From Adineta ricciae (taxonomy: Eukaryota > Rotifera > Eurotatoria > Adinetida > Adinetidae): 64,000 bases of DNA. The stretch is taken from assembly GCA_905250025.1 (NCBI GenBank), contig CAJNOJ010000199.1, forward strand, positions 1 through 64,000, in the 5' to 3' direction. This document shows, piece by piece, positions 2,006-64,000 of this stretch (within the stretch, counting starts at the first letter, position 1; each line of letters begins with the position of its first letter). Below the pieces are notes generated by a model. It saw only the letters and a list, made by a program, of their open reading frames with translations, did no database searches and had not been told where the DNA came from. A program made the translations under genes and the position numbers.

Positions 2006-2695
2006 ATCTGAATACAAATTTTCAATTTTTTTGCTGTTGAAAACAGCTTTGGATGAAAATAGTTTGAAATGAACATAGCAATGTACATGTTACTCTCGAA
2101 TTATTTAAACTCTTTCATGATTACCTTTGTCTAATAACTTAGAAAGTCTAAGTTAGGATTATGGACATTGCTTTTCGCTTGAGACGGTTTATCATATGAT
2201 CTTTCATTCTTTAGTATATATGAGTAGATGGTGTTAATACACTTTTGTGTTCTCTCACTTATTGAAAATGCAACAATGAAAACTATTAAAATATCAGGAA
2301 ATTAAGTTTTGAAATGGATTTCAGGTACGCTAGATTGATCCTCCAAAAATTTTAGAAATGAATATAAGAGAAAATCATATGTGACACCTCGAATATTCTA
2401 ATTCATGCAAGTCATTGCAGTTTTCTAAGATAAATACTTTTTTGAGAATATACGCAAAAAGATTAGTTTTGCTTTTTCAATTTTAAAAGTTCGTTTGGTT
2501 GATTGTGAAGTATACATAATGTTTGTTTTCTTCAATCGATTTCAACATTAGATTTACGCATTCAATATGTTTGACAACAGTTCCTTAGAACATGAACCAA
2601 TTCAAACCAAACGTTATTCTTCGTAGATTTTTATTATTACAAGAAAAAGCTTCTGTTATAGTTATAGTAACCGTTCTTAAGAAATATTTCATTCG

Positions 2696-2848
2696 TTAAA
2701 GGAACAATATGCAATGACTTTTCATTGTCCATGTTCAAATACATCAATTCATTATTCAACATTTCATCAAATAGATTTCTCACTTGAAATAACAATGAAT
2801 TTATTTAGAATTTAGATATGTTCAAGTTCATTTGTAAGTGATAAATAG
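2696..2848 (+). pseudogene. Relic of the three-module membrane protein family
   Basis: One frame reads LKEQYAMTFHCPCSNTSIHY, then FHQ, then after an in-frame TAG, ICSSSFVSDK before a second TAG. This is the most conserved block of the genes at 4274, 14456 and 60145 (CPCS..SI.Y..F....HQ.CSSDF.S..W). It lies 1.4 kb upstream of the intact gene on the same strand. Both parts stay in the same frame, so decay is by nonsense mutation plus loss of flanks. Recognisable similarity ends within ~10 bp of the left end of the MITE at 2856, so the insertion may have cut the copy. Confidence 0.65.
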
Positions 2849-2855
2849 ATAGATA

Positions 2856-3938
2856 ACGCTCGTCGAGAGTGACTCACATAACCCTCGACTGAAATAATAA
2901 CACAACTATTACCATACTTTTCATTCATGTCTCATATCGAAAAAGCAAAAGTATCAAGTTAGGTTTAACTTCTCGAACTGATTTCAGGATCGTTATCTTT
3001 CTCTTTATTTAGTGTGCATTTCAAAATAAAGATGGGCGTGAAAATGAAATGGTAACTCGCTAAAAGCGGCTAATCTTAACTTTTCACATTTAACCGGCTA
3101 TTTCTATGATGATCGAAGATCAACCAAATAAGAATATACCCACGGTATCATTTTTTATGCTACATCCGACAGTATTGCAAACATGTAAAGAACTACCCTA
3201 TTCGAATTATAGCGACTAGCCGCAAGTATCCGATCAGAGGAAGGTCGGTGAACGATTAAGCGCTTGTTTATGATAGGCTTGTACGAACGAAAGCAAGTAT
3301 GAATGATATTTTGTTTAGAGGTATCAAGCGATTAGATCTAGGCAGTGTTTCATCCTTTTCTCTTTCCAAAATAGCTCAACGAATCCGATCGATGAGCGTT
3401 ACTCCTGTGTTTATTGATTATCTGAATGATGATTGTTCAATAAAACGCGGTGATGAATAAAATAAAACCACACATGTATAAGACGAAAAGAATATTTGAG
3501 TTTTAAGCTTTTAAATCTAGAAGCTAAATTTTCGACTTTTCAACTGTTAGACTATTAATTAAATGCTAATCATTAACCGATTGATCATCTGTCATTAGCC
3601 AACTGATTATTACTTATTATCTAATTTTCTATTCGCTGTAAAGGGTGCACCTCACGAGAGCAAAATCACTTTCAACCTCCAGATAATACGTAATAACCAA
3701 TTGGATAATAATTCATAATCACGTAGTTAATAATTGATAAAGTAAAACTTTATAATTAGTTACCGATTACTTCATAGTCCGTTGGTTGATACCTAATAAT
3801 CAATTAGTTATGAGGTGAAAAGTTTAAAACTCATAGTTTCGAGTTCGAAGGATTGGTTGAATACTCGAATCGAGTTAACGATTTCCACGCTACTCATTAT
3901 TTCAGTCGAAAGTCAAGCGATTCACTCTCGACAGGCGT
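2856..3938. mobile_element. Non-autonomous DNA transposon (MITE-like), ~1.08 kb, TA-flanked
   Basis: The left end (2856-2899, beginning ACGCTCGTCGAGAGTGA) is the imperfect inverse of the right end (3896-3938, ending TCACTCTCGACAGGCGT). The match extends ~43 bp and includes the inner block TCGACTGAAATAAT. Both ends abut TA (2854-2855 and 3939-3940), the target duplication expected for Tc1/mariner-type elements. No transposase ORF lies inside. The interior is A+T-rich with many TTAATT-like words. A solo copy of the left end occurs at 34045. Confidence 0.6.
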
Positions 3939-4273: not shown

Positions 4274-7200
4274 ATGAATACTGTGAAAAACTATATTCTG
4301 ACGTTAAATTTATTTCGATCTAACAGAAATGAAGAAGAAGTGACTGATCATCAGCTAGAAAGCAATCTTATTGCTACTCGTGTTTATCTGATAACTTTAG
4401 TAATGGTTTTGCTTGGCATTGGTCTTGCAACAAAACTAAAAATTGAAACAAAAACACTAGTTATCGACCAACCTACTCAGTCTCAATTTGAATCATTAGT
4501 CGATCCTTCATGTCCATGTTCAAAAAGTTCTTTACCTTATAGTGAATTTATTTCTCATGAACCATTATTTCATCAAGTGTGCTCAAGTGATTTTATTTCT
4601 AATCAGTGGATTGAATCATTTTATTTTGGAAATATTACAACAAATTATCTTGCAAGTGATTATCGTGCTATAGCAAGTGCATTTTCTCAAGCACTAAAGA
4701 GTTTCTGTCAATTATCAAAAGAAAAAGTGGCAGAAAGTCTTCTGTTGTTTGAAACAACATCAATGATTAATACTTACGCACTTTCTCAATCTATTCTTGA
4801 ATCTGAAGTTCAATCAACAATCGACCGTTTTCAAAGAACAGCACCTAATCAATTTCGAACACAGGTCGAACTAATCAATCAGATAATTCTTGTTAACGAG
4901 TTACTCAACGGATTAGAAACTTGTCTTTTCCCATCACTTCGTGCGGGTGATGTTGGTTTTCGAGTTCAGTTAAATATCAATGGATTTCAACATAATAATG
5001 AATCATGGTGTTGGTGTTTAGAATCCTTTATTTGTGAAGAACCAAGCGGAATTTACAATGAATATGCCATTGACACAAAAGGATATATTTCGCTTGATTA
5101 TAAGCCAATTATGAGTGTACCAGGAATTATGACAGGTTTAATGCCAGTCAATACATTACTTCAATCATCACTTGAATGTTTTTTCAATGAAATTTGTCTT
5201 CATAGGATTTTGCAATATTCGAAAACGCCAAATGCAAAATTTAATGTAATGACTCCATTGGCAACTAGTCGATTCAATGTCAATTCAACTGTTCAGTCAA
5301 TCATAGATCGATTAATGGTTGAAGATTGGGGATCAATGATCTCTTTTGAGAAGTATTATACTCAGTGCGCGCCAATAATGTGTCGTTATTCGATCAATGA
5401 ACGACCTGATTATTTCACTGTTTCCAGTAGATTGATTGGTCTTCTTGGTGGACTTTGTACGGTATTGTCTATCATAGTTCCATTAATCGTTAACTTTATT
5501 CGACGACGGCCAACTGATGAAATAACGGAAGCTATTTCTAGTAGGTTATTATTTCTATCAAATCTCTTTCTTAATCAAGTTTTTTTTTGTAGTGAGAGAA
5601 CGTATATGCCGATTGGTACTATCAGTGAAGAAGAATCTTGTTGAATTAAATCTTTTTAATGATAATTCTGATAATGAACGGTTTATTTCGGATCAACGTA
5701 TAGCCACTCGAATCTATATATTAATTTTACTTATAGTTCTAATTATATTAACTTTCTATTCGTCACTATCACGTGAAGTTCATCGAGAAACAATCCAAAA
5801 ACCGACCCAATCTGAATATGGATATCTTCTATCAATTTATTCGTCCACTTTAGAATGCCCTTGTTCATTGATTTCAATTCAAAGAAATACTTTTATGGAA
5901 ATGGAACCTGAATATCATCAAGTCTGTTCAAGTGATTTCGTTTCATCTGTATGGATCGATTATACAAATCAAGGTATTGCAGCTGGAGAATATTTTTATT
6001 ACTTAGATTATAAAGGAAATGCCGGTGCACAATTTCAACTCTTAGCGATTTTTTGTCAACAAGCTAAACAAATTATTACTGATGCTCTTCAGCTTTTTCT
6101 TCAAGATGACATTGTAACATCGCAAGTACTTTCGCCAGAACTATTTAGTCTACAAATGAACGGATTAATTCGAGATTGGCAATTAGAAACAATTAAAAGT
6201 TTCAATAGAACATTTCAATTGATTCAAACGACTCAACAAGGAAATCAATTGATAAATGCTTATTTCAATTTCAAATTAAACTTTAGTGATACAGGTGAAA
6301 TCATACCGTATCCATTAACTTATTTTGATGATCAAACAAATTCAACTTGTAATTGTGCTATATCAAAATCATGTGGTACATTAATGGCCTTTTATGATTT
6401 TGATCCGTTTACGTATAATTTTACAAGACTTGATACAATACCAAATTTTTATACGTCATGTATTCCTGTTCAAGCTTTACTCGATTCGTCACTCGAATGT
6501 TTTTATAATCAGACATGTATGAACAAAATTGCTCTATACTTACCACTAGGAAACAGTTCATTTACAATAATGAATTCAAGTAAAAATCAAAATAATGAAA
6601 GGATTGAATTAATTATTAATCGATTATTTGTTGACAAATGGTCGTCAAATTTATCATTTTATAATTATTACCAAGTTTGTTCACCTCAAACATGTACGTT
6701 TGAATACACTCGTCAGCATGATTTCTTATTCTTGATTACTACTGTAATCTCTGTCTTTGGTGGTCTAACAATAGGTTTAACAATTATGATTAGTATTCTA
6801 CTAGAAATTGTACAAAAACTGAGAAGCAATCGTTCATTTTTCGACCACATTGATGCTATGAAACAATGGACTCTTAGTTTGATGAAAGAAAAATATTTAC
6901 CCAATCGACTTAAACTTTTACTGTTAGTAATTATATTAGTAGTACTCTTTTTATTTTCTTCATTTCAACTGGAAACAAAAACGATCCAAATATTCAAACC
7001 ATCAATTGAGATCTATGAAAATTTATTTAAAAAATATCCGAACACTCTTCAATGCCCTTGCTCCAAAGTTTCAATTTCATACGAAGTATTGATTAATGTT
7101 TCTGTGATTAATTATCATCAAGTGTGTAGAAGCTCTTTTATTTCTAATCAATGGATTGAAGCTATATTTTCTGATAAAAATTTTACTCAATTTGATTTAA

Positions 7201-8027
7201 TGGACTTTCGATCGACGTCGTCGGCTTTTTTTCAACTACTGGCATCTTTATGTCAGTTGAGCAAAGAAACAGTCAACGATGGGCTCTCACAATTGAAAGC
7301 TACTAAATTTATTAATGCTCATATATTATCAAGAGTCACGTTTAATGATCAAATTCAATCATTTATCAATCAATTTCAAGTCAGTATGACTAATGCATTT
7401 TTAAACACACTTCATTTAGTTCGTCAAATAACTAATGATAATACATTGATGACACTTCGTGGAACAAATTGGCAATGGAAGAAAATGACAAATGATACAT
7501 TTCGAGCTGATGCGACGGTTCGAACAAAGCCGACTCACTATGGTACATGTGATTGTGGTTTATCTTCACAATGTGTTCAACCAGCGGTAGTGGCTAAAAA
7601 TAACACTATTCCTGGACTGTACGTTGGCTGTTATCCGCTTGAAGCTTTACTTACATCATCCTTACAATGTTTCCTTGACTCCTCATGCTTTCAACAAATA
7701 CAATTACAAAATACCTCTTTCAATCCATTGGATTCATATATTGCAAGTCGTTTTCCTCAAAATGCCTCAGTTGAAACTTTAATTAATCAACTGATGGTAG
7801 AAGAATGGTCAAAATCAATATTCTATGAAAAATATTTTAATGAATGTTATCCACTCTCTTGTACTTATTCGTATTTTCAACATCGTGGTTCAATCGATGT
7901 TCTAACAAATATTATTGGACTTTACGGTGGATTAGTAATATCAGTCAAAGTAATCGTACACATTTTGCTTAATGCATATAAATCATCCAAACGACGATCG
8001 AATCGGGTTGAACCGATATCAAATTAA
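4274..8027 (+). CDS. Three-module 2-TM/Cys-rich membrane protein, copy A
   Basis: Two exons, 4274-5540 and 5593-8027, flank a 52-nt phase-1 intron (GTAGGT...TGTAG). The product is 1233 residues. It is three copies of one module. Each copy has a TM helix (about residues 37-53, 463-479 and 860-880), a ~330-residue ectodomain and a second TM helix with a GLLGGL/VFGGL/LYGGL signature (about 387-409, 800-827 and 1192-1217). Ectodomain landmarks in order are CPCS, HQVCSSDF or its equivalent, SFCQ, a C.C....C cluster, PG...GC.P, SLECF.N..C and the terminal C.P..C.Y. Modules 1 and 2 also carry LNLF and ATRVY/ATRIY before TM1; module 3 has lost both. Predicted topology is N- and C-termini in the cytosol, with many N-glycosylation sites. 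I recognise no known family. Topology and trimeric repetition suggest a single-chain channel or receptor (inference). AATAAA follows at 8140. Confidence 0.8.
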
Positions 8028-14455: not shown

Positions 14456-17400
14456 ATGGCTTTTCTCAAAGATTACTTTCTCAATTTAAATCTCTTCGAA
14501 CCGCGCCCTGAGAGTATCGAAGTACAGGATGATCAAACGCGTCGTTGGAATCTTCTCACAACTCGAGTGTATCTTATAGTTCTTCTATGGACTCTCATTG
14601 TAATCGCCTTGTTTTTATCGCTGACGCGTCAAACGACAATAGTCAAAGTGAAATTTCCAACCAAGCAGCTGTTCGAGAAATTTCCTTCAAATGCCCGGTG
14701 TCCTTGTTCTCAGATCTCTTTTTCACATAGCAAATTCATTTCACTCCAAACAACTTTCCATCAAGTTTGCTCGAGTGACGTAATTTCCGATCGATGGCTC
14801 AAAACGATAAATCTTCGAGCAAACGCTACTTATTTTCCTCGAGGCGATTTTCAAACATTTGGTAGCGCTCAATTTCAAGCACTTGCTGGTTTTTGTCGTT
14901 TAGCTAAAGCTAATATCGAGCAAGCCATCAACTCCTTCTATCTTCGTACATTCCTAACCCCTCAAGTACTATCTGACACCGATCTTCAATCAAAAATTCA
15001 AGCATCGATCACTGAACTTCAATCAACAGCACCAAATACTTTCAATGGTTTACTACGATTAGTTAATGACATGATCCGAACGAATGAACTAATGAATGGA
15101 TTACTAACTGTTGCGACCTATAGATACTATTTCCTATCCCAGAATAACGTTAATCTTGCTAGAATAGGTATTGGATACATGCAAACCGACGGATACTGGT
15201 GTACATGTCAAATTAAACTTTGTCCGTGGAGTCCTTCAGGCATACACCAAGTATTCAATCGATCTGTAGAACCATTTCCGGCAATTCTTCTTTGGCAAAT
15301 ACCCGGAATCTCATCAGGCTGTCTCCCTGTGCATTCAATTCTTCTTTCCGATCTCGAATGTTTCTATAACCAAACGTGTGTGAATAAACTTTTCTCATAT
15401 TTCCCGATAACGAATGAAACATTCGTAGCAATGAATGCCACTAAACGCAGTCGCTTCCATCCAAATTCTACCGTACAATCCGTAGTCGATGAACTGATGA
15501 TCGAAGATTGGATAACAAACATTTCCTATGAAAACTATTATTCTCAATGTGCACCAAAACTATGCACATTCTATGAAACCTCTCGACACAAGAAGATGTA
15601 CGTCATCACAAAACTTATCAGTCTATTGGCTAGTTTAGCCATTGGTTTCAAATTAATTATCCCCATTGTTATGCGAGCCGTCCGAAGGTTAACAGATCGA
15701 ACACCACGGACACAAACATCTTGTAAGGATAGTTGGATTCAGTTAACAAAGGTTGTTGCTTAAGTGAACTATATTTTAGTTTGTGCTCGTTGTCAAAGAC
15801 TTCTTCGAAATAGTCGAAAGGCACTCATTGAATTGAATATCTTCAGGCATTATCCAAGCACTGACCGACAAATACGCTACGAACGTTATGCTACTCGAGC
15901 CTACATCTTGTTGATTCTCATCACAATCTCGATTTTAACGATTTACAATTTCTCACAAAGATCGATTCGTTCGAAAACAATTGTTTATCCAAGCGAATCA
16001 CAGTATCTTCAACTACAACAAGATCACCCGCATAGCCTTTCGTGTCCGTGCTCTTCAGTTTCAACTTCGTACGGAACTTTTATTCAACTTCGACCTTATT
16101 ACCATCAGCTATGTACAAGCGATTTACTTTCGGAAAAATGGATGAGTTACACATACTATTTGAAATCTGACGCATCGTTTTTTCTCGATTATCGTGGCAC
16201 TGCCAACACTCATTTTCAAACCTTATCAACATTTTGTCAAGAAGCTCAGCAAACAATCAAGGATGCACTTCGAATATTCTTTCAAACAGAACTTGTAAGT
16301 TTTCAAGTGCTTTCTCCTCGTTCATTTCAGCTTCAAAGCAATTCACTGATTGAAAATTGGAAATCAACTACAATCAACACATTCGTGCGTACGGTTCAAT
16401 TAGTTCGTGAAATAACCCACGGGAATCAATTATCCAATGGTGGATTCAATTCAATCGCTGATGTTAATCCCATTACTAGAAAGACGACATTACAATCACG
16501 ATCTTATGGCCCTTGTAATTGCGCTTTGGCTCGATCATGTCGGATCCAAGCCGGTATTTATCAAATCAACGAATTTCACAGTCGAAATAGGACATATTCA
16601 GTTCCTAATTTCTTTCTTGGTTGTCAAACAATCGAAGCATTACTTCTCTCGACATTACAATGTTTCTATAATCTCTCGTGTATGTTGACAATTCATAATC
16701 AATCAGCTAGAGTCGCTTCACAATCTTTTACATTTTCTCCGCTGAATGAAAAACTTAATCCACCAAATGAAACAATCGAATCCATTGTTAATCGACTAAT
16801 GGTTGATCAATGGTTTTCCAATTATTCGTTTTCGTTGTATTATCACAAATGTGCTCCGTCGTTCTGTACATTCGAATTCGAAGCTCATCAGAGCTTCCGA
16901 TATATCATTGGTACCATTCTGAGCATCTATGGAGGTCTGTCGCTCGGACTGAAGATTGTCATCTGGATTGGTCTGCAATGTCTTAAACAAATTATGGAGC
17001 ACATCACGTCGAGATTAGCTATGTGGCATTCAATTCGACGTGTGTTTACTCTGAATGATAAGCGCAAAGTCATTCGTCGATTACACTTCGTTCTGGTTAT
17101 TATCATGCTTTGTATTTTCTACGGTATAACGAATTTTACAATTTATACAGAGACTGTAGGGATGAAGAACATTACGTTAACTAGTTATAAAGAGTTACTC
17201 GAACAATCCCACGATTTGCTACAGTGCCCGTGCTCTCGAATTTCGATAAAATATAAATCGTTTCTTACTATTCAACCGCGTTTTCACCAGATATGCTCGA
17301 GTGATTTCGTTTCCAATCAATGGATTTCGTATTTATACAACCTTAGCGTACGGATGAACGAGTTCGATCCAGCTGATTTTTATCATGCAGCCAGTGGACA

Positions 17401-18154
17401 GTTCCAGCTGCTTCAGTCGTTGTGCAAACTATCCGAAGAAACATTAAATCAATCGCTTATTCAACTAGGCGAAAGCGAATTTATTAATACTGAACTTCTA
17501 GCTCCGGATTTATTAGAAAGTCGAATTCAATCAAACATCAACGAATTCCAACTAACAATGCCGAATTTATTTATCAATACTCTCTCGTTACTTCGCGAGA
17601 TGATCGGAACGAATATGATACTAACAGTATTTTCTACCAACTGGCTAATTGAAACACCATCTGTTCTATTCCACGGAAAATTTGCTCATACAATTCCAAT
17701 AGATTATCAGGAATGCAATTGCGCAGTGTCATTTAAATGCGTGTCTCCATCTCGTGGCATGCTTGCTGGCTGCTATCCACTTGAAGCTATGCTTCAATCT
17801 ACACTCGAATGTCTCTTCATTCCAACGTGTATTCCCATCATGTATAATTTCAAAGTGTTGGACATTTCTTCAGTTAATTCAAGTCGTTATGCTCTGAACG
17901 CGACCGTCGAATCGATTATTGATAAACTAATGGTTGAAGAACTCTCAAGCAAAATGTCCTATGAAGTATACTTTAATCAATGCGCGCCATTATCCTGTAG
18001 TTATTCATATGATGGTAAGAATGACGTAGTAGAAGGAATTACCACTTTAATTGGCCTCTACGGTGGTTTATCAATCATTTGTCAGTTACTTTCTGTATTC
18101 ATTATCAAACAAGCTTTCTGTCGAGTGCGACAAGTTAATCCAACGACACAATAA
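14456..18154 (+). CDS. Three-module 2-TM/Cys-rich membrane protein, copy B
   Basis: Exons are 14456-15722 and 15780-18154, with a 57-nt phase-1 intron (GTAAGG...TTTTAG). The product is 1213 residues. The ATG at 14456 (MAFLKDYFLNLNLF) was chosen because it aligns with the start of copy A. Exon 1 is then exactly 1267 nt in both genes, with the intron at the same codon position. All three modules are present: CPCS, HQ.CSSD, SLECF-type, C.P..C.Y and the GLYGGL-type second TM. Module 1 has an ATSLLASL-like variant of the TM2 glycine motif (SLLASLAIG). Module 2 keeps LNIF and ATRAY before TM1; module 3 lacks them, as in copy A. AATAAA (18150-18155) overlaps the stop codon. Function is unknown; see copy A. 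Confidence 0.8.
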
Positions 18155-26177: not shown

Positions 26178-27140
26178 TTAATTAGTTTTATTTAAAAATG
26201 AAAACCAAGGTGGAAAATAATCTTCTTGTCTACAATTGACATCAAGAGGAGAATGATCTGGTTTCGAATCAATTATGATTTCACCTACTTTATTATTTAA
26301 AAGAAATCCAGCCCACCATCCAAATGTTCCAACTGTAAGAATAAGATGATCACACATAGTTAATATCGCTAAATCCTCAATTGCAGCAAACGATTTCGGT
26401 GTTATTAAAACATTGTTTGTGCGATTAAACAATTTCTGACAATATAATTTATCATCTGATACGATCAGAAATGTCACTAAACGATACTTGAGTTGAAAAT
26501 ATGACATAGCATTAAATATATATTTATCTGATGAAACAGGCCGATGAATTAAGAGGAAATCGCCGCGACGAATATGAATACCTACAAGAGTTGAATTATG
26601 CCTATTGATACTTCTATTCAGAAATTCATTAACATGGTTTAAAGTTAATTCTTTAAAACGTAATTGTTGTTTTATCTGTTTTTGATAATCAATAAAATAT
26701 CTACAAACTTGCCAAAATCCCGATAATTCTAACGAATAATTATTATTTGGATTCAAGAGATGAGGATAAAATGTACAATGAGTATTGATTATTTCAGTCG
26801 AATTTGAATAAGAACTTAAACGAGATTCTGGTGCGAGATTCCGTAAATTAATATCGAACGAATCACTAAGTCTCGCAATAAAATGTGAGCTAATGTATAA
26901 TTGACATGATCGATTAAGTGATAAACCATAAGCAACAGCAAATTGAAATAAATTATTGCCAAGTCGACCATTAATTTCACGTAAAATGATAATACATTTC
27001 TTAGAATTCTTCAAATGAATAATATTCTTCCATAATTGTGAAATATAGCTTATTTTCGATTTCATATTATACACCATAGAACAGCACACAATTGTAATCA
27101 TAAATATTATTATCAAATTATAATTGTTTTCAAGGAACAT
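26178..27140 (-). CDS. GT11 family alpha-1,2-fucosyltransferase-like enzyme
   Basis: A single exon of 320 residues. The ATG at 27140 gives a type II membrane layout: a short cytosolic tail, a TM anchor (NLIIIFMITIVCCSMVY) and then a lumenal catalytic domain. A longer frame extends to a GTG at 27200 but is unlikely to be used. Family motifs are clear: GRLGNNLFQFA (residues ~58-68), the GDP-fucose-binding VGIHIRRGDF, FLIVSDD and TVGTFGWWAGFL near the C-terminus. It probably transfers fucose from GDP-fucose to a galactose acceptor in the Golgi. Several N-glycosylation sequons are present. The lack of introns contrasts with its P450 neighbour. GT11 genes are patchy in animals and common in bacteria and nematodes, so transfer is possible but not shown. 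Confidence 0.85.
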   Translation of the reverse strand: MFLENNYNLIIIFMITIVCCSMVYNMKSKISYISQLWKNIIHLKNSKKCIIILREINGRLGNNLFQFAVAYGLSLNRSCQLYISSHFIARLSDSFDINLRNLAPESRLSSYSNSTEIINTHCTFYPHLLNPNNNYSLELSGFWQVCRYFIDYQKQIKQQLRFKELTLNHVNEFLNRSINRHNSTLVGIHIRRGDFLLIHRPVSSDKYIFNAMSYFQLKYRLVTFLIVSDDKLYCQKLFNRTNNVLITPKSFAAIEDLAILTMCDHLILTVGTFGWWAGFLLNNKVGEIIIDSKPDHSPLDVNCRQEDYFPPWFSFLNKTN

Positions 27141-28337
27141 TTTCAATATTGATTCATTTTTATTAGTACAAATAGAACCTCTTAAACTACCCAAGCGCAC
27201 ATGTACTCAAACGAGCTGCACACTTTGAAGTGCATGGGCGAAAACTTAGAATACTAATGAAAGAGAAGAACGAACGAAAAAAAAGGATACAACATGTGCG
27301 TTATACCATGACGGTGAAAAAAAATTTTGAATCATTATACTCACATGTAATAGAATCAATCATACGAGAAGAAAATGAATACATTTCATTCACCTCTACG
27401 ACAACATATCGATAATAAGTCGCTCTTTTCGTTCTCTTCTCCTCTTATCTGTTATTATCATGCACAGTGACTCATCCTCTTGATTTTCCGGAAGGAATTA
27501 GAGACACACTCGCTGTCGGCCGAGAAATGATAACCTCGACGGGCATGACGAGTGGCACACAGGAAGAAGTGCATGCTAAGAAAGTCGGTACTTCCTGATT
27601 TTAGGCAGTACACAGAACGGATAACAAGAGATTATATGATATAGATGCCAGTAAGATGCTGTCAGAAAAGCAAAATTGATAGCTCATTCGTTTCATAATT
27701 GTTTAATCTTTTCATATAAGCTTAAAGATAAAAATTAAATAAAGATGAAAACAAGTAAGGCACTGCGATTGCTACTAGCCTTCAGTTGAATCATGACACT
27801 GTGTCGCAATGACCTGGGATGATGGAATATTTGGTGTTATCATGCTTTATTCAATATCATTTGGGTCTCATCTCATCCATCTTTACTTCCTGTTACTTAT
27901 TTAGATGTCATAAACAATGGTGCTGACAGTTTAAGTATGTACTTGCAAACGTTCATTAAATCAACGAAAATATTTTAAATTAACGTTGTCGTGCAGTTGA
28001 TGATTGTTAAAAATGAAGAACAGATCGTATATAGATATAAAAAGATACTCGTAGTTTTGTCAGTACCGACATATACGAGAATGGCGCATCTCTTAAGATA
28101 AAAGAGCTTAACATTCGAATTATTGAGTGTGAGTAGTTGTAAAATGCCTCATGTTGTTTTTATTAATGATATTTCTATATTATTACAAAGCATTCTTGCA
28201 TTCCATGAAGCCATTGATAAAAAAAGAAGCCAACGACATCAACGCATGAATTCATCTGTTTTCTAAAGATTATTTTGCTATAGCTGGGCTTTGCACGACG
28301 ATGTATCTTTCTTTTAGAATAAATCCATTATAATTTC
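27141..28337. other. Intergenic, divergent promoters expected
   Basis: Lies between the divergently transcribed GT11 gene and a GPCR. No domain-coding ORF was found. A TGACTCA (AP-1 type) word occurs near 27469 and a run of TATA-like sequence near 28030. Confidence 0.35.
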
Positions 28338-29294
28338 ATGTCATCTGATGAAATACTTCGTTTGAATTTCATAGCTCAAACTATAGTAATATATGCTGGT
28401 TCGTCGATGTTTATATGTGGTATTCTTGGTAATATTGTAAATATTTTCCTATTTACTTTTCATCGCCAATTTAATAGTTTATCCATATCAAGATTTCTTC
28501 TGTTTTCTTTTTTCGGAAGTCAATTAAATCTTCTCAGTGCATTTTTACCTCAATTAATTTCTCGAATAACCGGAAATGATCCATTAGTGAAATCTGAAAT
28601 ACTTTGCAAGTTACGATGGTTTTTTGGGCCGGTAACAGGAACAGTAGCATTACATGGAATTTGTTTAGCAAGTGTCAATCACTATTTGTTATCATTACGA
28701 AATATCCGTTATCATCGATGGATAACACAGCGTCGTTCTTATTTCATTTGTTTGTTTGTTTTATTTTATTCAGTTTTGTTCATAAGTCCAAATTTAATTT
28801 ATTTTACACATTGGATTAATATATCTAATATAACTACATGTGATATAATTAATCCAATTGCTGCTAGTTATAATGTTTATATTGGTCTTGTTATATATAG
28901 TTTGATCCCCATATTCGTTTTATCAATATTATCTTCCTTAATATGGTTTAATATACGAAAGATTATCATTAGAGGGAACGGTATAGAACAAACCATAACT
29001 GGTTTATTAGTCGGTCAAGTCGTAATGGTTTTATTCACAACAATTGCTTTTGTAATGAGTCGAATATATTTTCTTTATACAAAAAATTTTCGGAAAGATT
29101 CTCTTCGTTTAGCACAAGAAAATGTAGCTTCAAGTGTTATGCTATTATTTAGTACAAGCACGCATTGTATGTCTTTTTATGTTTATTTTTCGGTTTCGAA
29201 AATGTTTCGTCAAAATTTATATCATATTTTTTATAAACAGAAGCGTCAAATTCAACCAATGATTGGGCTACAACATATTGTTCATCGAATATAA
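28338..29294 (+). CDS. Orphan rhodopsin-like GPCR (318 aa)
   Basis: A single exon with seven hydrophobic segments. TM1 carries GNIVNIFLF (the class A N residue). CKLRWFFG places the conserved Cys at the start of TM3. The DRY position is degenerate (ASVNHYL). Basic loop 3 contains NIRKIIIRG, and TM7/helix 8 reads FYVYFSVSKMFRQNLYHIF. It is closest within the window to the receptor at 32263, sharing CK.RW.FG, the AQEN block before TM7 and an identical MSS..I.RL N-terminus. The ligand is unknown. AATAAA at 29391-29396 follows. Confidence 0.8.
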   Translation: MSSDEILRLNFIAQTIVIYAGSSMFICGILGNIVNIFLFTFHRQFNSLSISRFLLFSFFGSQLNLLSAFLPQLISRITGNDPLVKSEILCKLRWFFGPVTGTVALHGICLASVNHYLLSLRNIRYHRWITQRRSYFICLFVLFYSVLFISPNLIYFTHWINISNITTCDIINPIAASYNVYIGLVIYSLIPIFVLSILSSLIWFNIRKIIIRGNGIEQTITGLLVGQVVMVLFTTIAFVMSRIYFLYTKNFRKDSLRLAQENVASSVMLLFSTSTHCMSFYVYFSVSKMFRQNLYHIFYKQKRQIQPMIGLQHIVHRI

Positions 29295-32262: not shown

Positions 32263-33258
32263 TCATTGTCGCCAAATTACCTTAATTGCAACTTGACGAG
32301 CAAATCTTGTGATTGGAAGGTTTGATCTATGTGGTGTTACTTGATTGCGTTTTCCATAGGAAAAAGCGGCTCTCACATTTCGTCTATATGCACTTGACAT
32401 TATAATATATATATAAAATGTTCCAATATTTAATAAAAAACTGGGAACAACAGATACAGTTTTCCACAGATTTTCTTGCGCTATTTGCAAATCCGATTTC
32501 ATCCGTGACTGAGTAATTTGTGCATATAAATTATATACAAAATTGGGAAGCGAACTAATAAATATCACCGTATATTCAACTAACATCATTCGAGTCACTT
32601 CTTGACGAAGTCGATTGTGTTGTTCGCGGCGTATTGACCAAAGATTATACCATGTAAGCATGGAAAAAAGGCCAAGAGTAATTTGTGGAATACTATTGGT
32701 CATAGTTAAATTAAAATAAACGATAAATTGTTGATATATAACTCGATCGCTACTTGACGCCATACATCGATGTCCCGAATAATAAATAGCATCTGGCATA
32801 AAAATGATGATATAAGCAATACTAATCATAGTTGTAATTATAACAGCTCGTTCGAATGTAATCAATCGTCGATATCGTTCATTGCGTGATGTATAGAGAA
32901 ATCGATCAATACTTGATAAACAGATACATGTAAATGACATGTTAAAACTCCAGCGACCAAATAACCATCGAACTTTACAATAAAATATTGAACCAACTAG
33001 TAGATCGACACCAGTGATAGCTAGCATTGAACGTTGAAAACGAGATGTCCATAAAGAAGTGAGATTACTAACGAAAAACATAATCATAAAAACACAATTT
33101 GACATTTGTCGAAGTGTTTTATTTCGAAGAAAAGCAACGATATTCAATAGATTTCCGATTGTTCCAATGATGATGAGAACGAGTATAACATATCCATCAA
33201 AGATTTTGGCAACAGATTGAAGACGAATAATTTCATTATTAGTTAATACACTTGACAT
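32263..33258 (-). CDS. Orphan rhodopsin-like GPCR (331 aa)
   Basis: A single exon with seven TM helices. TM1 has GNLLNIVAFL. TM3 begins with FYCKVRWLFGRW and ends with SSIDRFLYTS (a DRY variant, DRF). The following loop is RNERYRRLITFERA. Loop 3 (NLWSIRREQHNRLRQEVTRM) is basic. TM7 ends FYIYIIMSSAYRRNVRAAF. Paralogous to the inverted gene at 28338, with the 2.15-kb transposon lying between them. Ligand unknown. Confidence 0.82.
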   Translation of the reverse strand: MSSVLTNNEIIRLQSVAKIFDGYVILVLIIIGTIGNLLNIVAFLRNKTLRQMSNCVFMIMFFVSNLTSLWTSRFQRSMLAITGVDLLVGSIFYCKVRWLFGRWSFNMSFTCICLSSIDRFLYTSRNERYRRLITFERAVIITTMISIAYIIIFMPDAIYYSGHRCMASSSDRVIYQQFIVYFNLTMTNSIPQITLGLFSMLTWYNLWSIRREQHNRLRQEVTRMMLVEYTVIFISSLPNFVYNLYAQITQSRMKSDLQIAQENLWKTVSVVPSFLLNIGTFYIYIIMSSAYRRNVRAAFSYGKRNQVTPHRSNLPITRFARQVAIKVIWRQ

Positions 33259-39590: not shown

Positions 39591-42500
39591 CTATTGATCA
39601 ATAACAGCAGGTGTAAAATATTTCTGAAGCTCGTGATTGATCGCATCGGTTTGATTGTTAAAAAAGTTCACCATTTGCATAAGTGCGTCGATGTTTTCAA
39701 TCTTGAATGTGATACCCCATGATAATTTCATTTTATCTTTCAAATAGTCTTCGACTCTAGAATATTGACGACAATTTTGAACACCTTTAAAGCCGTCTTG
39801 TGTGTATTCGTAACCGGCACCATTCGCATTGGTACATGTTTCGGTTAGATTTATTTTATCGTTGCCATCTTCAACTATTAACGTACGTGTCTGGTTGTCG
39901 ACTATTTGATAGTCACTGTTCCAGAAAGGTTTATCGAAACGACAAGCAAATTCAGCAATTGTTTGAAATAAACTATTAGTATAGACCCATGTTTTGACGA
40001 ATTGAATTTCCTTGTCTGATTTGGTAACTTTTAGTGGCATATATAGTTCACCAAAAATAAAATTGGACAAAGCGTCCGTATCCATAGCACCTAAAGTGTA
40101 TTTGGCGAGCCAACGAGAATTACTCGTCTTTCGATTTGGATCGTCGACAAGAGAACAAGACAGACCAGTTTTCTCTTGGATCGTTTTCAGTATTAAACTA
40201 TTTCCACCAAGTTTTAAGGTTCCACTGATTGTATGGCCGTAGTGAAGAGTTGCGTTGAGCCATGCTTTTGTGGTGGGACGCGGAAAAGAGACTAAATTCA
40301 TACGTTCTGCATATGAAATAATTTCGGTTGCATCTTTTACAGTCAGTTGATCTAATGTTTTGTCGAGCTTGACTTTCATTGCATCACACAGATGTTTTGC
40401 TCGATCTTCTAAATAATCGTTTGCCACCATTGATTTTTCTGGATCTTTCAAAAAATTGCATTTGGCCCATGTTGGTATGTTTGCTGTGGAATCAAAGCCC
40501 ACTGGTCCTCGTTGACTAAATAAACGTTCTAATGGTGTCATTCGAAGCATTGATACGTTTGTATCATTGAAAACTTCTCGTTCAAATTCTACCGCTGTGG
40601 TTTGATCAGCTGTATCACATCCAACAGATAGAATAAACGGATCAATCGGTTCGCCATCCTTCCAAACTAAATGGTTCTCTCCCAGTAACAATGGTTTCTT
40701 TCCATCTTTATCCAATAAATCGATGCGTATCTGTTTGTCGGGCTGTTGTAAAATATCTTTCGGCGTACAACGCAAAAGTTCATGCACTCCACTGATGTCA
40801 AGGTCGAACTGTGTGCCACTGGCTTGTACAGCACCCAACGATTGCATTTCTGATAATGGTACGTAGCCTACAGTCATATTTGTACCAGAAGCCATCAGAG
40901 AGACATCGATACAATTGACCCCAACTGTAGGTAAATCTTTGGCTGGTTCGCGAATAATTTCATTGGAACCATTATGTTTCTGCCATACAAGAGCACGATT
41001 GAAGACGCTCTTTCCATCTGTTGCATGTAGCATATGTGTACCGGAACAGCCACTTTCGTCAGTAGGAGGATCTGGATCAGTAGCCAATTGTACTTGTCCC
41101 CATCCTGAAAAACGTAGACGTAATAACAACGCGTCATTATAGATTTTAGTTTGTCCACTGTCATCTCCTAAGTTTGGATCTTCTTCGTAGGTATGGCTAT
41201 CGCAATAACGTAGTTCATAGTTGGCATCAGGCGATTTGTTTGAATAGCCACCATGCATTCGAAATTCGAATTGTAGTTTAAATTCTTTAAGGACAATAAG
41301 ACCAGTTAGACGAGTAAGAATCATTGTTTTTGTATGTTCAGGAATTTGTAAAGTTTTTACGAATTCACGGCTATTTTCTGCCCATGCGCCTACAGCTTCC
41401 AATGTGTTTAATGCCAAATCATCCATTTGTGTATAGATTTCTTCTGATCGATCGTCATTATTGTACAGCTTCAGTAGCTCCAAAGCATCTGTCAACGAAG
41501 AAGGTAAATCGACATCGGCAAGTGAAAATAATTTCGATTGGTCGATTTTGAAGAACGAAGCTAATTCCAAAAACGGACGTATACCAAGTGACATGATTGG
41601 CCATGCGGCAAGCATTTCAATAGCCTGTCGTCGTGGTTTATCAGCTGACCAATCCTTTATTTCGTACATTCTTGAAAGCCACATGATCATGGGAACAAAG
41701 CACGCATTGAAATAACCCGGTAATTCCTGACAAAGATTGTCCAACTGGGTGTTTCCGTCGATATTTACTGGCGTTCGTTTAACTTCATACGATATACCGG
41801 CACGCGCGGCAAAATCTTTTTCTTGTTGGAAAGCCGTCATGATTATAGCAAAACGGTACAAATGTGATTCTCTGACTAGCTGACCATCTTTCAGTTCTTC
41901 TGGTGTTTTTGATGGATTTGTTTTATCTTGATCCTGAATTATTTGTTGTAAATATGCACCAGCACCACCTATTTTTGCGACATAATTCAGCAGTTGCTCG
42001 GCTCTTTCATAAAATTGGTCGAATCCTTCACCTTCATCGACTATTTCGTTTATAATTTTGTGCACATCTTCCTTGTTTTTAAACCATCCCGGTATATCAT
42101 ATTCACAGTGTGCCGACTTCTTTTTATTACAATGGCTTTTCATTCCACCTTTGCTCATGTCCGGAAAATTCTTGTATCGATAATTAGGCGTCAGTGGTAA
42201 AAACCCTTCAGCAGCAACATTTGGATCTTTTTGTTCAGCCACAAGATCAAAATTAGTTTGTCGAGTCCATTGTTTATCGAATGCCATATCGTATAAAGGC
42301 TGTATTTCGTGGTGATAGAAATCTCCGATAGATTGAAATTGAAAGCTTTCGGGTTTAAGTGGTGCAATGACCGTCATTGGAATAAACGGTGTTTGTGGCT
42401 TGTCCGATACTGGAAGCTGCGTGTAGACATTGTATAACTTTTTGGCCAGATCATCGTGAACATCCTTGTCTTTAATGTGAATTAACATTTGTTCGATTCG

Positions 42501-43391
42501 CAAACGAATTTCAAAATCGAATAATTTCCCATATAATTCTTTAGCTTTTTCGCTTATAGCACCCATATCCTGAAGAGAATCACTTGATTCATAAAGAACG
42601 AACCGTTGAGCATTTTCAAATGTACATGATTCAATCGGAATTATTGTACCATCGCCGTTATTCATCGATAACTTTCCATTTTTAATATCCCAATTTGGAA
42701 TGAACCAAACGTTTGTACCAGGTTTTTTGTCTGGTAACTGAAAGTACGGTTTTTCACCCAGTGCTCGCAGCAGACATTGAACGTAATGAAGATGAAGCAT
42801 TTCTTCGTGTGCGACCATAAAAATACTTTTTTTCCATTCACGTGCTCGTTCGAATTGAATAGCATAACGCTTGTTTTCTTGATCAGCATCGACGAATTCT
42901 TCTGGAGTGCTTTTAATCGTGCAAGCTGTGTAGATATAAGCATTCAATAAGCAGTGCTCGAGCTTGCTGGCTAAATGCAATCGTTCCACTAAGTCGCGTT
43001 TTTCGTATTCTGAAAATTCTAGAAATAACCAAGAAAGAATCGATGAAGAAATATGAAGGCGACAGCAATTAGATTCATGATAATTGTGAATGTTTTGTTT
43101 TTTTGATTCACAAAATCTTCACAGTTCATATCTATTTTTAATCTCTCCTTGCGGTGTACTTAAGCAGATCTCTGCTAATAAGATGAACGTGTTCTTATAG
43201 AATTGAATGCAATCGAACACGGCAAGATTATTCTATATGGACTTGAAATGCATAGTTGAAAGTACCGCCATCGAAATATTTCAATGTAGGTCAATATGCT
43301 CCTAGAAACTATTTCGAACACTTTGTTGACTCTTACTTTCTCCTGACTGATCATTTTCAGTTGCAGCGTCGTTGTTCGACTTGTCGTCCAT
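39591..43391 (-). CDS. Large ferritin-like / VioB-like (iminophenyl-pyruvate dimer synthase) protein
   Basis: The main exon, 39591-43009, is an uninterrupted 3.4-kb frame. It has no ATG at its 5' end (the first usable codon is GTG) but starts at an acceptor, TTTTCAG. A 55-nt exon at 43337-43391 (ATG, 18 codons plus 1 nt, donor GTAAGA) joins in frame across a 327-nt intron, giving 1157 residues. The N-terminus matches the ferritin-like domain of bacterial iminophenyl-pyruvate dimer synthases (VioB/RebD class): ASKLEHCLLNAYIYTA, then VAHEEMLHLHYVQCLLRALG with the E..H di-iron-type ligands. The remaining ~900 residues have no motif I can name. VioB-class enzymes couple indole-imine units in violacein-type pathways; the role in an animal is unknown. 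A near-intronless body with one short leading exon suggests a horizontally acquired gene that gained a 5' exon. Confidence 0.72.
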
Positions 43392-44083: not shown

Positions 44084-45058
44084 TTATTCAACAAAAAATG
44101 ATCGTAGAAAACGATAGAACAATTTTCGTACTCGTTTAAAAAAAATTTCGCGAAAAAATTTCCTTGGTAAAGTTGATAAATAAAACGAGGTCGCGAAACT
44201 AAAATAGTACAATGCAAAGCCAAGTCGAATGCAGAAATCTTCCACCGCTCGTTGGCCAACTGTTTTATTCTGATTTCCACTGGTCAATGTCGAATAGGTA
44301 TAAGAGCCCAAACGTAGCAAAACAAGTGTAGAACTGATAAGAATTTGTGCGATAATCACCATGATTAATTGACTTTCCGAACGTTTCGTTCGCGAGTTAT
44401 ATGCTGAAGCTAAGACTGGCATTGCTCGTTGTCTTGTTCGTTTAAAATTTCGGAAAGTAATCAAAGCAAAAATGAACATCAACGAATGAGGTAAAATGGA
44501 TACGATAAAGATCAAATAAATGGCGAAAACGATTGTATACACATTGCCAGGTGGAGCTTGACAATTATTGTTAATCGTATTAAAAAATATAAAAACATGT
44601 ACAGACGCAGTTGTTCCAATCAGAAAAATGATCCAAGATATTCGATGTGCGAATGTCAATCGACTCATTGCACGTATCTCCACGTGCCGCGACGTAGCTA
44701 GGCTTCGATCAACTATCGCGAATAGAATATAATACGTAACCAGCATTGGAAATGTGATCGATATATAATAACGAATCTTACAGAACACCATCGATTGACG
44801 CTCTAGAGTATTTCCGAAATTATCCAAAGCGATCCGTGTCGGGACAATAAATAAGATTGAGAGGATTTCAAAAACTGTTGCACATGATAAGTAATACACC
44901 GACGAGTTCGTACGTAACCGAGGAGCGGTAAATGTTATCAAATTACAAACTCCACCGATGGTACCAGCGATGGTTGTGATGAAATTGATGTATAATGGAA
45001 CTATTCCAATAATTTTTGATAATGTCAATGCGTAGGTACTCGCGTTAGATACATTCAT
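44084..45058 (-). CDS. Orphan rhodopsin-like GPCR (324 aa)
   Basis: A single exon with seven TM helices. The N-terminus has sequons (NVSNAS). TM1 ends GGVCNLITF, CKIRYY opens TM3, and TM3 ends AIVDRSLATSRH (DRY variant DRS). Loop 3 is long and basic (RNFKRTRQRAMPV...SRTKRSESQ). TM7/helix 8 is FYLSTLPRKFFREIFF. It shares the DR.L.TSR.V..R..S...FA.RIS pattern with the inverted receptor at 50837, so the two are paralogues. Ligand unknown. Confidence 0.82.
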   Translation of the reverse strand: MNVSNASTYALTLSKIIGIVPLYINFITTIAGTIGGVCNLITFTAPRLRTNSSVYYLSCATVFEILSILFIVPTRIALDNFGNTLERQSMVFCKIRYYISITFPMLVTYYILFAIVDRSLATSRHVEIRAMSRLTFAHRISWIIFLIGTTASVHVFIFFNTINNNCQAPPGNVYTIVFAIYLIFIVSILPHSLMFIFALITFRNFKRTRQRAMPVLASAYNSRTKRSESQLIMVIIAQILISSTLVLLRLGSYTYSTLTSGNQNKTVGQRAVEDFCIRLGFALYYFSFATSFYLSTLPRKFFREIFFKRVRKLFYRFLRSFFVE

Positions 45059-56932: not shown

Positions 56933-57652
56933 ATCACGAATGTGAATTATCGATAACGTAAACATTTGTTTTTTGTTTCAACTATATTACGCGTCAAAAT
57001 GTATAGAATCAACGAATGGTTCTTGTGTATATTGCCTATTTGCAGCAAAGAATTTCATCAATCTACATGAGGACGAATATAGTTTACGTTTCTTCATTAT
57101 AATATTTCAGATGAAGCCTTATTAAATTTTGTTCTTTTAATACCAGGTGGATCTCATTTTTTGTATAAAATCTATGCTCTAGAAAGAATGACTTATCTTT
57201 CTTTGTTATCAAATAAACAGTTGACTTTTTTGTGAAATTTTCTTTTCGAACAGAATGTCGACACAAACTGATCGTGAGAAATATGTCTATCTATATACAT
57301 ACATTTGATGTTTTTTGTCGATGACAAAAACAACTTTGTCTTTATTGATATCATTTTTATTTAGAAAACAAAGTTCAAGTCTTATGATGAATATTGGATG
57401 AAGGACATACACCAAGACATAAGTCGATTTCTAGTAACAGCCAATCGTAGAGAAAGAAGACATGGATCGTTCAATCACAAAGTATCTTTGAACTATTTCT
57501 CGGAGTGAGATTTTACAATCAATTTTACCATGGATGTTGTTTGTCAATATAATTACTAACGACACGCGTGATCTATATGTAGGACTTATCTTCGAATTGA
57601 CACACTGACTCAACGGCTTTCTTTTTTTTCTGCGTTGATAAATATTCTGGTC
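56933..57652. other. Intergenic, nothing recognised
   Basis: Spacer between two plus-strand genes. No clear regulatory element. Confidence 0.35.
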
Positions 57653-60144: not shown

Positions 60145-63100
60145 ATGTCTGAAAGATTAACTTTACGATGGCTGTATTACAAACTAATTCGATGTAATAT
60201 TTTTGATTCTCGATCATCAGATCCTGTGATAATCCATCGTGAAATCTTGTCAACTCGTTTGTATATTCTTCTTCTTATCATTTCTCTCGTTATTTTAACA
60301 ACATATACTTCTCTTTACAACCAAATCGAGATTAAAACAGTCACTTTTCCAAGTGCATCGATTTATCAAAAACTGGAAAAGAAATATTCGAACAGTTTAC
60401 AATGTTTATGCACAAAAGCCTCGATTCCATATGGAGAATTTGTTACAACAACGCCCAAATTTCATCAAATCTGTTCAAGTGATTTCATTTCTCAAAAATG
60501 GATCGATTTCATCTTTCAAGTCGATGTCAAATCGACCCTTCCGATCGATGTTCGAACAAGTTTAAGTTCAATGTTTCAATTAATTCGATCATTTTGTCAA
60601 AGTGCCACGCACACAACGATTCATTCGCTCGACTCTTTTCATCATTCTCCAGTGATTAGTCCAATCTTATTAACTAAACATATTTTAGAAGCAAAAGTTC
60701 GAACAACTTTGCACTTATTGCATCAAACAACTACATCGAATTTCCTTCAATCGATGAATCTTGCGCAAAAAATGACACAAGCAAATCAACTAATAACAGC
60801 GTTATTCACCAACTACATGGTAACATCGAAAATAATCTCATCGTTATCCGGAGAAAATCTTATTTTTCGCACGGATATCCATGAAAATAAATATATACGA
60901 AAAAACTCCACTGTTGTTTGCTCTTGTCAAACTCATGACTCGTGTCATTTACCCGGATATATTTATTTAAATGAAAATTATCACAAAACATATGACATCT
61001 TTGATTTAAATCAGCTTGAAGCAAATGCAACTTTATCCGGAATAGTTGTTGATTGTTTACCCATTCAAACAACTCTTTATTCATCATTAGAATGCTTTTA
61101 TAATCAATTATGTTTAAATACTTTGCTTTCATCTTATCAAAAGAAAATCAATATTTCCAAATTGAATTCTTTACTAACAAGTCGTTTTCATCTTAAAACA
61201 CCCATAAAATCACTTGTTGAACAATTATTTATCGAAGAACTCTTTAATCACACAAACTTCTCGACCTATTATACGAAATGTTTGCCGTACGTTTGTACTT
61301 ATCTTCATTTTAATCGGTTCAATTGGGTATCCGTTGTAACAATAATGTTTGCCCTTTTTGGAGGAATCAATACTATTATACGTCTAATTACTCCCTATAT
61401 CATTCGAACGGTTTTATTTTTGATCAAACCAAAGCAAGTCCGAGAAAATCGAAGTAAGATCGGAAGAGTCAATCATTTCGCTACTGCTATATCCTACACT
61501 CGATAACTTCAAAGTCATTTTCAATTGAATATTTTTAGATGCAACAATTCGAGTTCGTTTGAAAAAACTTTTTGTCGTTTTCAAGATGCAACTCGTTAGC
61601 CTGAATATTTATGACTCAAATGCAAATAATCCAACGCATATTTACTATGGTCGACTTGCTACACGATTACATTTGTTTTCCTTATTTATTTCTATTTGCA
61701 TCTGTATCCTATTTTCTGATTTATCGAATCAAATTATAACTGAGAATGTTTCAACTATTTCTCTGGATAAATATGCTCATCTTGAAAAGCAATATTCTTC
61801 AACCTTACGATGTTCGTGTACACAAATTTCAATTCCGTATGAGGATTTCATCAATATCAGTGTAAGTTATCATCAAATATGCTCGAGTGAGTTCATTCAA
61901 TCATCTTGGTATGAACGTCTTTCAGTTTTTAATACTAATTATGAACAAACTGATTTTCTCTCTATATCTTCATCGTATTTTCAAACATTACAAACGTTCT
62001 GTTCTATTGCGAATGAAACAATCGCTGATGCGAGAAAAAGATTTTTAGCAAGAAATTTCATTAATTCTCAGCTTTTAACGCGCCATTTATTCGATTCACA
62101 AATCAATGCATCAATAAATGCGTTTCAACAATTAACAAAAATTGAATTTCGTTATCGAATCAATTTAACTAACACCTTATTACACAGTAATCAATATATC
62201 AGTCGTACAACAACAAGTACTCGCCTACTCGCAGTTTCTCGGTATAAAAATAACACATTTGAATCCATTCGAATGTTCGTTCTTGCATTGTATGCCATAA
62301 ATGCAAATCATGACAGATGTTATTGTGCTATGGATTCAACATGTTCTTTAGATTATGCGCTTCTTAATTTTGATATTGTACAGCATTTCAATTGGCAAAT
62401 TCCAGGAATACACGGAGGTTGTTCTATAATCAACACAGTTATGAAATCATCATTAATATGTTGGTTCAATTACAGTTGTTTTAGTCAATTACGAGAACTT
62501 GTTCGTCCATTGGGTATTTCTATTCCTTGGAATACCACTCTACTTGATCAAATGTTACTTAGTCGATATTCTCCGGATACGTTAATTGAAATAATTCTTA
62601 ATGAAATTATGATTGAAGAGTGGAATTCTTCGTATTCATTTGACAAATTTTACTCGAAATGTCAACCATCGTCTTGCTCATTTACTTACGAAAAACAAGT
62701 AAATATTATCTACATAGTGACTATTGTCATTAGTATTATCGGCGGAATCAATACGATTCTTCGATTGACTTCACCATTAATTATCAAAATTATTCTGAAA
62801 ATCATTTCAATGATTAAACATCGCAAAGAAGAACATCAACGTAAGTTAATCGCATTTTTTAAATCATCGCTTCTCAAGAGATTAGTTCTAGAAAATGCTC
62901 GCATTCAAAGAAATAACAATATAACACATCGATTAGTGAATAAATTGATATCATTAAACATATTCGATGATGGATCCGATGATCCTGAAAGAGTCCATCG
63001 TCAGCGGATCTCGACCCGATTGTATATAGTAGGTTTTACGGTTGCCATTTATTTTATCAGCGTTTACACAATATTTATGAGTCGAAGCGAATTTCAATTC

Positions 63101-64000
63101 TTTTCAAATCCCTCAGAAAACGATTATAATGAATTACTCGCCTCATATTCCGATTCACTCAAATGTCCGTGTAGAAAAATCTCGATTGAATATAAATCTT
63201 TTCTCACAATCAATTCTAAACTTCATTCGGTCTGTTCAAGTGACTTTGTCCGTCGACGATGGATTGAATATTTATTCAATACTTTTCATTGGTATGACTA
63301 TGATCGACGTGACATTCGCATACGTGGTGGTGCATATTTTGTCTTTCTTTCTACACTATGTCAAATGTCTCAAATAACTATTGATAATGCGAAAGAACAA
63401 TTTTTGGATACCTCGTTTGTTAATACCCATATGATCTCACAATTGGATTTCGATATTCAAATAAACAATACGATTTCACAATTTCAAAATGATACGTTAA
63501 TCAAATTTTCTCAGAGTTTGAAATTTCTTCGTGATATTATCAATGGAAACGCTTTAATTTCTTCGTATTCGTTGAATTGGGATTGGTTTCGAGAAACGAA
63601 CAGTTCATATCGAATCAGTTCAGTTCAACCAGTTCGCACGATGAGTGGATGTTCATGTGGAACACAAAATGATTGTACAGATCAAGCGGGAATTTTCGAA
63701 GCAGTGTCAAATATCATTCCTCGATTCTTCTTCCCCGGATGGTATGTTGGATGTTCAGTTGTAGAAACAGTATTACGTTCAACACTGCAATGTTTCTACG
63801 ACGAACATTGTTTAAATTTATTCTTCTCGAAAATAAAAACATTTGCATGGGAATATTCCACGGAAATCAATATTTCAGTGATTAACTATACAAGTCATTT
63901 TCATAGAAATGCGATTATTGAAAAGCTTGCCAATGAGTTGTTTATTGAACAATGGATTATTCAAAAATCTTATTCATTATTTTATAATCAATCGCTTCCT
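60145..64000 (+). CDS. Three-module 2-TM/Cys-rich membrane protein, copy C (partial, runs off window)
   Basis: Exon 1 is 60145-61453. An 85-nt phase-1 intron (61454-61538, GTAAGA...TTTTTAG) joins it to a frame that stays open from 61539 to the window end, so at least 1257 residues if unspliced. Module 1 has CNIF, TRLYILLLII (TM1), CLCTKASIPY, HQICSSDF, SLECFYNQLC and a C.P..C.Y plus LFGGI TM2. Module 2 has SLNIY, TRLHLF, CSCTQISIPY, HQICSSEF and IIGGI TM2. Module 3 (from ~62930) has SLNIF, TRLYIV, CPCRKISIEY, HSVCSSDF, CSCG...C and LQCFYDEHC before the edge. Between modules 2 and 3 a GTAAGT (62841) and a TTCTAG (ending 62891) could define a 51-nt in-frame, stop-free phase-1 intron. Diverged from copies A and B but clearly the same family. 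Confidence 0.78.

Follow-up and report, generated by a model that had tools for sequence, protein, structure and literature searches.

Background

The described proteins closest in layout to the family reported here are channels built from subunits that cross the membrane twice. DEG/ENaC channels take three such units, each with both ends in the cytosol, a large Cys-rich extracellular domain between two transmembrane (TM) segments, and a Gly-rich second segment (TM2) whose selectivity motif is G-x-S. P2X receptors are trimers of two-TM subunits with Cys-rich ectodomains, and a polar face on TM2 but not on TM1 is the pattern of two-TM pores such as P2X and DEG/ENaC. The Na+ and Ca2+ channels are single chains of four homologous domains. 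Laboratory concatemers of P2X and of ASIC, in which two-TM subunits are linked in one reading frame, have reportedly been made. We know of no chain composed of three two-TM, 12-Cys modules; here we describe a family of such chains in the bdelloid rotifer Adineta ricciae.

Results

Gene models in the window

The window (the whole stretch of DNA that was analysed, 64,000 nucleotides from one end of contig CAJNOJ010000199.1) contains three genes of this kind, A, B and C, all on the forward strand. For protein A, the open frames 4274-5644 and 5592-8027 overlap and are joined via an intron into one chain of 1,233 aa (4274-8027, +) with zero internal stops. The features are as follows, with introns predicted from the sequence alone.

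2642..2869 (+), decayed single-module remnant (profile positions 60-127, in-frame stops), 1.4 kb upstream of A and outside the A chain
4274..5540 (+), protein A exon 1, module A1: TM at about 4367-4423, 12-Cys ectodomain, TM2 with GLLGGL at about 5435-5491; module HMM score 522 bits
5541..5592 (+), predicted A1/A2 intron: 52 nt, GT-AG, phase 1
5593..6872 (+), start of protein A exon 2, module A2: TM at about 5700-5756, 12-Cys ectodomain, TM2 with SVFGGL at about 6744-6800
6873..8027 (+), module A3: TM at about 6915-6971, 12-Cys ectodomain, TM2 with GLYGGL at about 7911-7967, stop codon at end
14456..15722 (+), protein B exon 1, module B1
15723..15779 (+), predicted protein B intron: 57 nt, GT-AG, phase 1
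15780..18154 (+), protein B exon 2, modules B2 (to about 17023) and B3 (from about 17024), stop at end
60145..61453 (+), protein C exon 1, module C1
61454..61538 (+), predicted C1/C2 intron: 85 nt, GTAAGA..TTTTAG, phase 1
61539..62840 (+), protein C exon 2, module C2
62841..62891 (+), predicted C2/C3 intron, phase 1; the acceptor may be 62885, 62891 or 62936, and 62891 was used
62892..64000 (+), protein C exon 3, module C3, crossing the window end, with its stop near 64174 on the contig

The four predicted introns of A, B and C all fall between modules, in phase 1; the A2/A3 and B2/B3 junctions have none.

The same window carries two rhodopsin-type GPCR genes (7tm_1; 28338-29294, +, and 32263-33258, -), three multi-TM frames (44084-45058, 46568-47581 and 50693-51784) that look GPCR-like by eye and had no Pfam match at E<=0.001, and genes for a glycosyltransferase of family 11 (26178-27200, -), a patatin-like phospholipase (53829-54986, -) and a short-chain dehydrogenase (57635-58498, +). 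An intronless 1,132-aa frame at 39591-42989 (-) contains a Ferritin-like domain (PF12902, E 5.5e-15) and was possibly acquired horizontally.

Module anatomy and topology

Each chain consists of three modules, each made up of a first TM segment (TM1), an ectodomain of ~300-340 residues with 12 Cys, and a TM2 with an SxxGGL motif. A 19-residue hydropathy scan finds six TM segments each in A and B and seven windows in C, where the fourth TM is split into two overlapping segments. Ectodomain Cys counts are 12/12/12 in A, 12/12/12 in B and 12/12/11 in C. Most NxS/T sites lie in the ectodomains (3-9 in each, 3-8 in those of A and B), and the loops from each TM2 to the next TM1 are rich in basic residues (8-15 K+R), with two Cys at most and one NxS/T or none; from this distribution both chain ends and the inter-module loops are probably cytosolic. 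Hydropathy, charge and NxS/T placement together suggest a topology of DEG/ENaC type, with two TM segments per module, a big Cys-rich extracellular domain and both ends in the cytosol. The sequence-only reading of this DNA had described A, B and C as one unit repeated three times, with ~12-Cys ectodomains, six TM segments and cytosolic ends, and the gene models, hydropathy and Cys and NxS/T counts bear it out.

The nine modules of the window align to A2 with 26-40% identity and 19 invariant columns (C3 being cut at the window end). Across 81 modules from 27 chains of the genome, 65 keep all 12 aligned Cys. Cys302 and Cys308 (A2 numbering) are missing jointly in the second module of L016, in the near-copies L024_m2 and L025_m2, and in the first module of L057, and neither is lost singly in any of the 81; because they are always lost together, Cys302-Cys308 is probably a disulfide pair.

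Family size and the number of modules per gene

The genome searched comprises 130.5 Mb on 1,033 contigs. Three single-module searches, returning 108, 97 and 103 matches (the best 107, 97 and 95 of ~1,370 first-look candidates were scored, a figure that is not a gene count), merge into at least 199 distinct module places on 89 contigs. At E < 1e-22 there are 108 genome matches, A2 itself counted. The 199 listed places fall into 138 groups, 10 with three modules, 41 with two, 87 with one and, among the matches listed, none with more than three; groups of one and two are expected, since each search kept its best ~100 matches.

In the DNA examined, twelve arrays have at least 440 bases without an intact module on each side and no N within, and all 12 contain exactly three modules: A, B, C, L048 (first array), L050, L051 (second array), L053, L054, L055, L057, L063 and L064. 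These counts were rechecked with a 58-module profile, at lower thresholds and with a scan for N. L055 has N 614 bases upstream, the upstream flank of L064 is only 446 bases, and L063 has three modules only if its 1.4-kb gap is an intron. Not counted among the 12 are L056 (start cut), the other array of L048 (its second) and of L051 (its first), both of which are cut and contain N, and L011-L039 (short flank). L049 was considered as a three-module array and dropped, as it has N within its first module where two overlapping module pieces abut, and is probably an assembly join. Contig C512 carries five modules in a row and, separately, a single module (L061, L062), with N between the second and third of the five and immediately upstream of the single one, and an internal TAG in the row of five. 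Given the N positions, we read these not as exceptions to three but as joins between different genes; the N letters of C512 and L049 likely mark assembly joins, and the module with the TAG is likely a decaying copy. In the arrays examined, exactly three modules looks like the rule of the family.

The spliced leader of this genome leads us to take its source for a bdelloid rotifer: a bdelloid spliced-leader query matched 46 genome copies at <=3 mismatches (0 for the reversed control). The exact query sequence is absent, and 41 of the 46 differ from it by one identical substitution at base 1. Copies often form head-to-head pairs on opposite strands, ~153 bases apart, for example at C6:235175-235350 and C8:239425-239600; most of these pairs are on C6 and C8, with others on C77 and C99. 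According to excerpts of one report, a 23-nt spliced leader is common to bdelloids, and none is shown there in a monogonont (PMC1925144).

Module phylogeny and selection

A tree was built from the 81 modules of 27 chains, leaving out L061-L064 and the broken, split or cut chains L019, L027, L028, L030, L031, L033-L035, L037-L039 and L049. In 18 of the 27 chains (A and B included; 14 without the four near-copies among them), modules at positions 1, 2 and 3 separate into three clades, each of 18 members (SH-aLRT 99, 100 and 98), so the triplication in these chains predates the spread of their genes. Other chains group differently: all three modules of L053 and of L055 fall together within their own chain (SH-aLRT 100 and 99), as do modules 1 and 3 of L048 (SH-aLRT 98). 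The modules of L053 (2027-7289) retain 88-94% DNA identity, with dS of 0.14-0.31. An AU test on a quick tree rejects a single origin for the modules at position 1 (p-AU 0.0006). Chains of the L053/L055 type have either been homogenised within the chain or triplicated anew. The within-chain grouping and the rejected single origin indicate that the count of three survives module turnover, and its return to three after either route is best explained by a working unit that needs three modules.

Modules have diverged strongly, with a median end branch of 0.51 changes per column. Ratios of dN/dS are 0.21-0.36 over the aligned modules of seven near-copy chain pairs (based on only two modules in two of these pairs) and 0.12-0.40 in 19 of 19 single module pairs, low values that indicate purifying selection on working genes, with constraint on all three positions. 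Together, the 0.21-0.36 range and the 108 matches at E < 1e-22 place the likeness among modules far above chance. Two of the excluded chains are damaged: L019 has a stop and L028 is split by in-frame breaks.

Transmembrane helices

In TM2, small residues occupy position 386 in 75, 389 in 78 and 390 in 78 of the 81 modules, and Leu occupies 391 in 69; position 396 is polar in 66 (K/R in 49; S, T and K in the three modules of protein A), and Pro is found at 400 in 34. At positions 390-392, where a G-x-S motif was looked for, Ser occurs at 392 in 18 of 27 position-2 modules, and another residue is commonest there in positions 1 and 3. Over 67 modules, near-copies excluded, the hydropathy of TM2 is periodic at 100 degrees (p 0.005 for positions 380-404, 0.02 for 381-400), and TM1 hydropathy has no helical periodicity (p 0.84). 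TM2 is thus amphipathic in hydropathy and TM1 is not. The TM2 spectrum is high at 180 degrees too (21.0, versus 25.0 at 100 degrees), and instead of lining a pore the polar stripe may serve tight helix packing or simply mark where the helix ends on the cytosolic side. Conservation, measured as entropy, has no periodicity in TM1 or in TM2 (p 0.71 and 0.52 for TM2), and information per column is 1.03 and 1.30 in the TM segments, versus 1.65 in the ectodomain. Mutual information over the 81 rows gave no contact map; its signal came chiefly from a small number of cytosolic and TM columns whose residues depend on module position.

Search for known relatives

Pfam gave only weak matches to six proteins of the window (best E 0.009, none above cut-off); against 58 modules at E<=1, the top shared family matched 2 of the 58 (E 0.055), and PF00858 was not among the 25 listed of the 36 weakly matching families. 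Profile searches of the PDB found zero matches at E<=10 with nine rows and, with 58 modules, 0 of 177,635 sequences at the same limit. As a positive control, a profile of only three bdelloid P2X rows found 34 PDB sequences, 33 of them named P2X. An hhalign comparison of the module with this shallow, three-row bdelloid P2X alignment gave a probability of 0.5% and E 0.12 over 23 columns. P2X is encoded by separate genes in this genome, and 0 of 62 P2X matches fall at the listed places of the family. The genome holds P2X genes without stops as well as several P2X-like stretches with stop codons, many of which may be introns read through and others pseudogenes. The Pfam, PDB and bdelloid P2X profiles agree with the earlier statement that these proteins show no convincing residue-level match to DEG/ENaC or P2X. 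Searches of prokaryote and viral collections with one module each, whose reach is close relatives only, found none.

A fold comparison had also been proposed, and was run on AlphaFold2 models of single modules, A2 and B3. Both models are helix-rich and of low confidence (mean pLDDT ~62 each), and both place a 9-residue strand directly after TM1 and another directly before TM2. At this model quality the search returned no significant match; P2X was not listed, and ASIC1a, present in the structure library as entry 6l6i, appeared only as a tied match to the stem.

The open-access literature searched contained no description of such a family. Other expanded Adineta families named in excerpts of one paper include NRPS, 7-TM receptors, LRR, TPR and Kelch proteins, and the three-module family is not named in those excerpts (PMC3846280). 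Judged by Pfam, PDB and the literature, with this genome as the animal sequence compared, the family is apparently undescribed; it appears to be new in sequence and architecture, with no known family and, for models of this quality, no known fold.

Discussion

Interpretation

We consider these proteins most likely to be pre-assembled three-unit receptors, possibly channels. More specifically, A, B and C may belong to a large bdelloid family of single-chain, pre-assembled trimers that serve as receptors for extracellular ligands and perhaps gate a pore, a reading to which we give a probability of about 0.4 and in which the threefold packing, glycosylation, disulfides, receptor role and pore are inferred. 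Each module would be a subunit-like unit running from a cytosolic N-terminus through TM1, a disulfide-rich glycosylated ectodomain and TM2 to a cytosolic C-terminus, and the three fused modules would fold as one pseudo-threefold membrane unit, with the six helices bundled, the amphipathic TM2s innermost and the three ectodomains next to one another on the outer side. Such a unit would most likely act as an extracellular-ligand receptor, one that more probably than not gates a small pore between the TM2s, and the many diverse copies may form a sensory or recognition repertoire. A built-in trimer predicts both a fixed count of three and its persistence through homogenisation or re-triplication, and is the reading that would best explain the fixed number; we count in its favour the 12 of 12 arrays, the position-wise clades, the dN/dS values, the TM2 pattern and the strands flanking the TM segments in the models.

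Against this reading we count the lack of entropy periodicity in TM2, the 180-degree signal, S, T and K at position 396 in A, the lower information content of the TM segments, and searches that gave no sequence match to a known channel family and no significant fold match. A quite possible alternative is a three-module recognition or adhesion receptor without a pore, in which a trimeric head binds cells, microbes or matrix and the TM segments anchor the protein and signal. The many copies and their strong divergence, the concentration of NxS/T and Cys in the ectodomains, the searches that found no channel match, and TM segments less informative than the ectodomain would all suit such a receptor, which accounts for the rule of three equally well; pure anchors, however, should not retain SxxGGL and an internal basic position in TM2 while TM1 stays plain. 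Channel function, as predicted from these sequence features, is plausible and about as likely as the non-pore receptor. We hold it unlikely that the fused units are a highly divergent branch of the DEG/ENaC superfamily or share a DEG/ENaC-P2X-like fold; the Pfam and PDB searches detected no sequence relation, and an assignment to DEG/ENaC or P2X is not justified. Phase-1 introns at several module borders make the module an easy unit of duplication, which suits a further account, three autonomous two-TM modules strung together by chance without joint assembly; the repeat number should then drift, yet it is three in every one of the 12 arrays, even where modules were recently homogenised, which leaves this account improbable. 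The proposal in the sequence-only reading of a covalent-trimer channel accordingly holds in part: the three-module, six-TM chain, the fixed three and the amphipathic TM2 speak for it, and membership in DEG/ENaC or P2X finds no support in the sequence searches or, at this model quality, in the fold comparison.

Extended to the genome, the single-chain trimer leads to a bolder and more doubtful picture, in which bdelloids would possess a repertoire of dozens to some hundreds of genes for natural single-chain trimeric ligand-gated channels or receptors outside the known channel families, a counterpart of the odorant receptors of insects. Most chains would have subunits specialised by position, and the rest would be 'homotrimers' of near-identical modules. 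If the three modules do act as one unit, the family would be a natural experiment in the covalent oligomerisation of two-TM proteins, and the presence in one genome of diverged, heteromeric-like chains beside a near-homomeric one (L053) makes the question of why trimers fuse directly testable. A membrane-protein family this large and absent from Pfam would also be a leading candidate for the means by which bdelloids sense or recognise their surroundings; were it an adhesion family only, it would still be a large unnamed animal gene family.

Comparison with known systems

The DEG/ENaC/ASIC channels (PF00858) share with the modules the predicted order of cytosolic N-terminus, TM1, disulfide-rich glycosylated ectodomain, TM2 and cytosolic C-terminus, as well as a Gly-rich TM2. 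They also use three units per channel, as separate chains, whereas here the three units lie in one chain; their Cys spacing is unlike that of the modules, whose ectodomain is predicted to be helix-rich. P2X (PF00864) is alike in its two-TM subunits, Cys-rich ectodomain and trimeric state, and differs in that it shows no profile similarity and is encoded elsewhere in the genome. In the four-domain Na+ and Ca2+ channels, as may be the case here, an oligomer has become a single chain of diverged homologous domains fixed in number; those channels have four 6-TM domains, in contrast to the three 2-TM modules here, whose ectodomains are large. P2X and ASIC concatemers are engineered, whereas in the rotifer family the single chain is the natural state.
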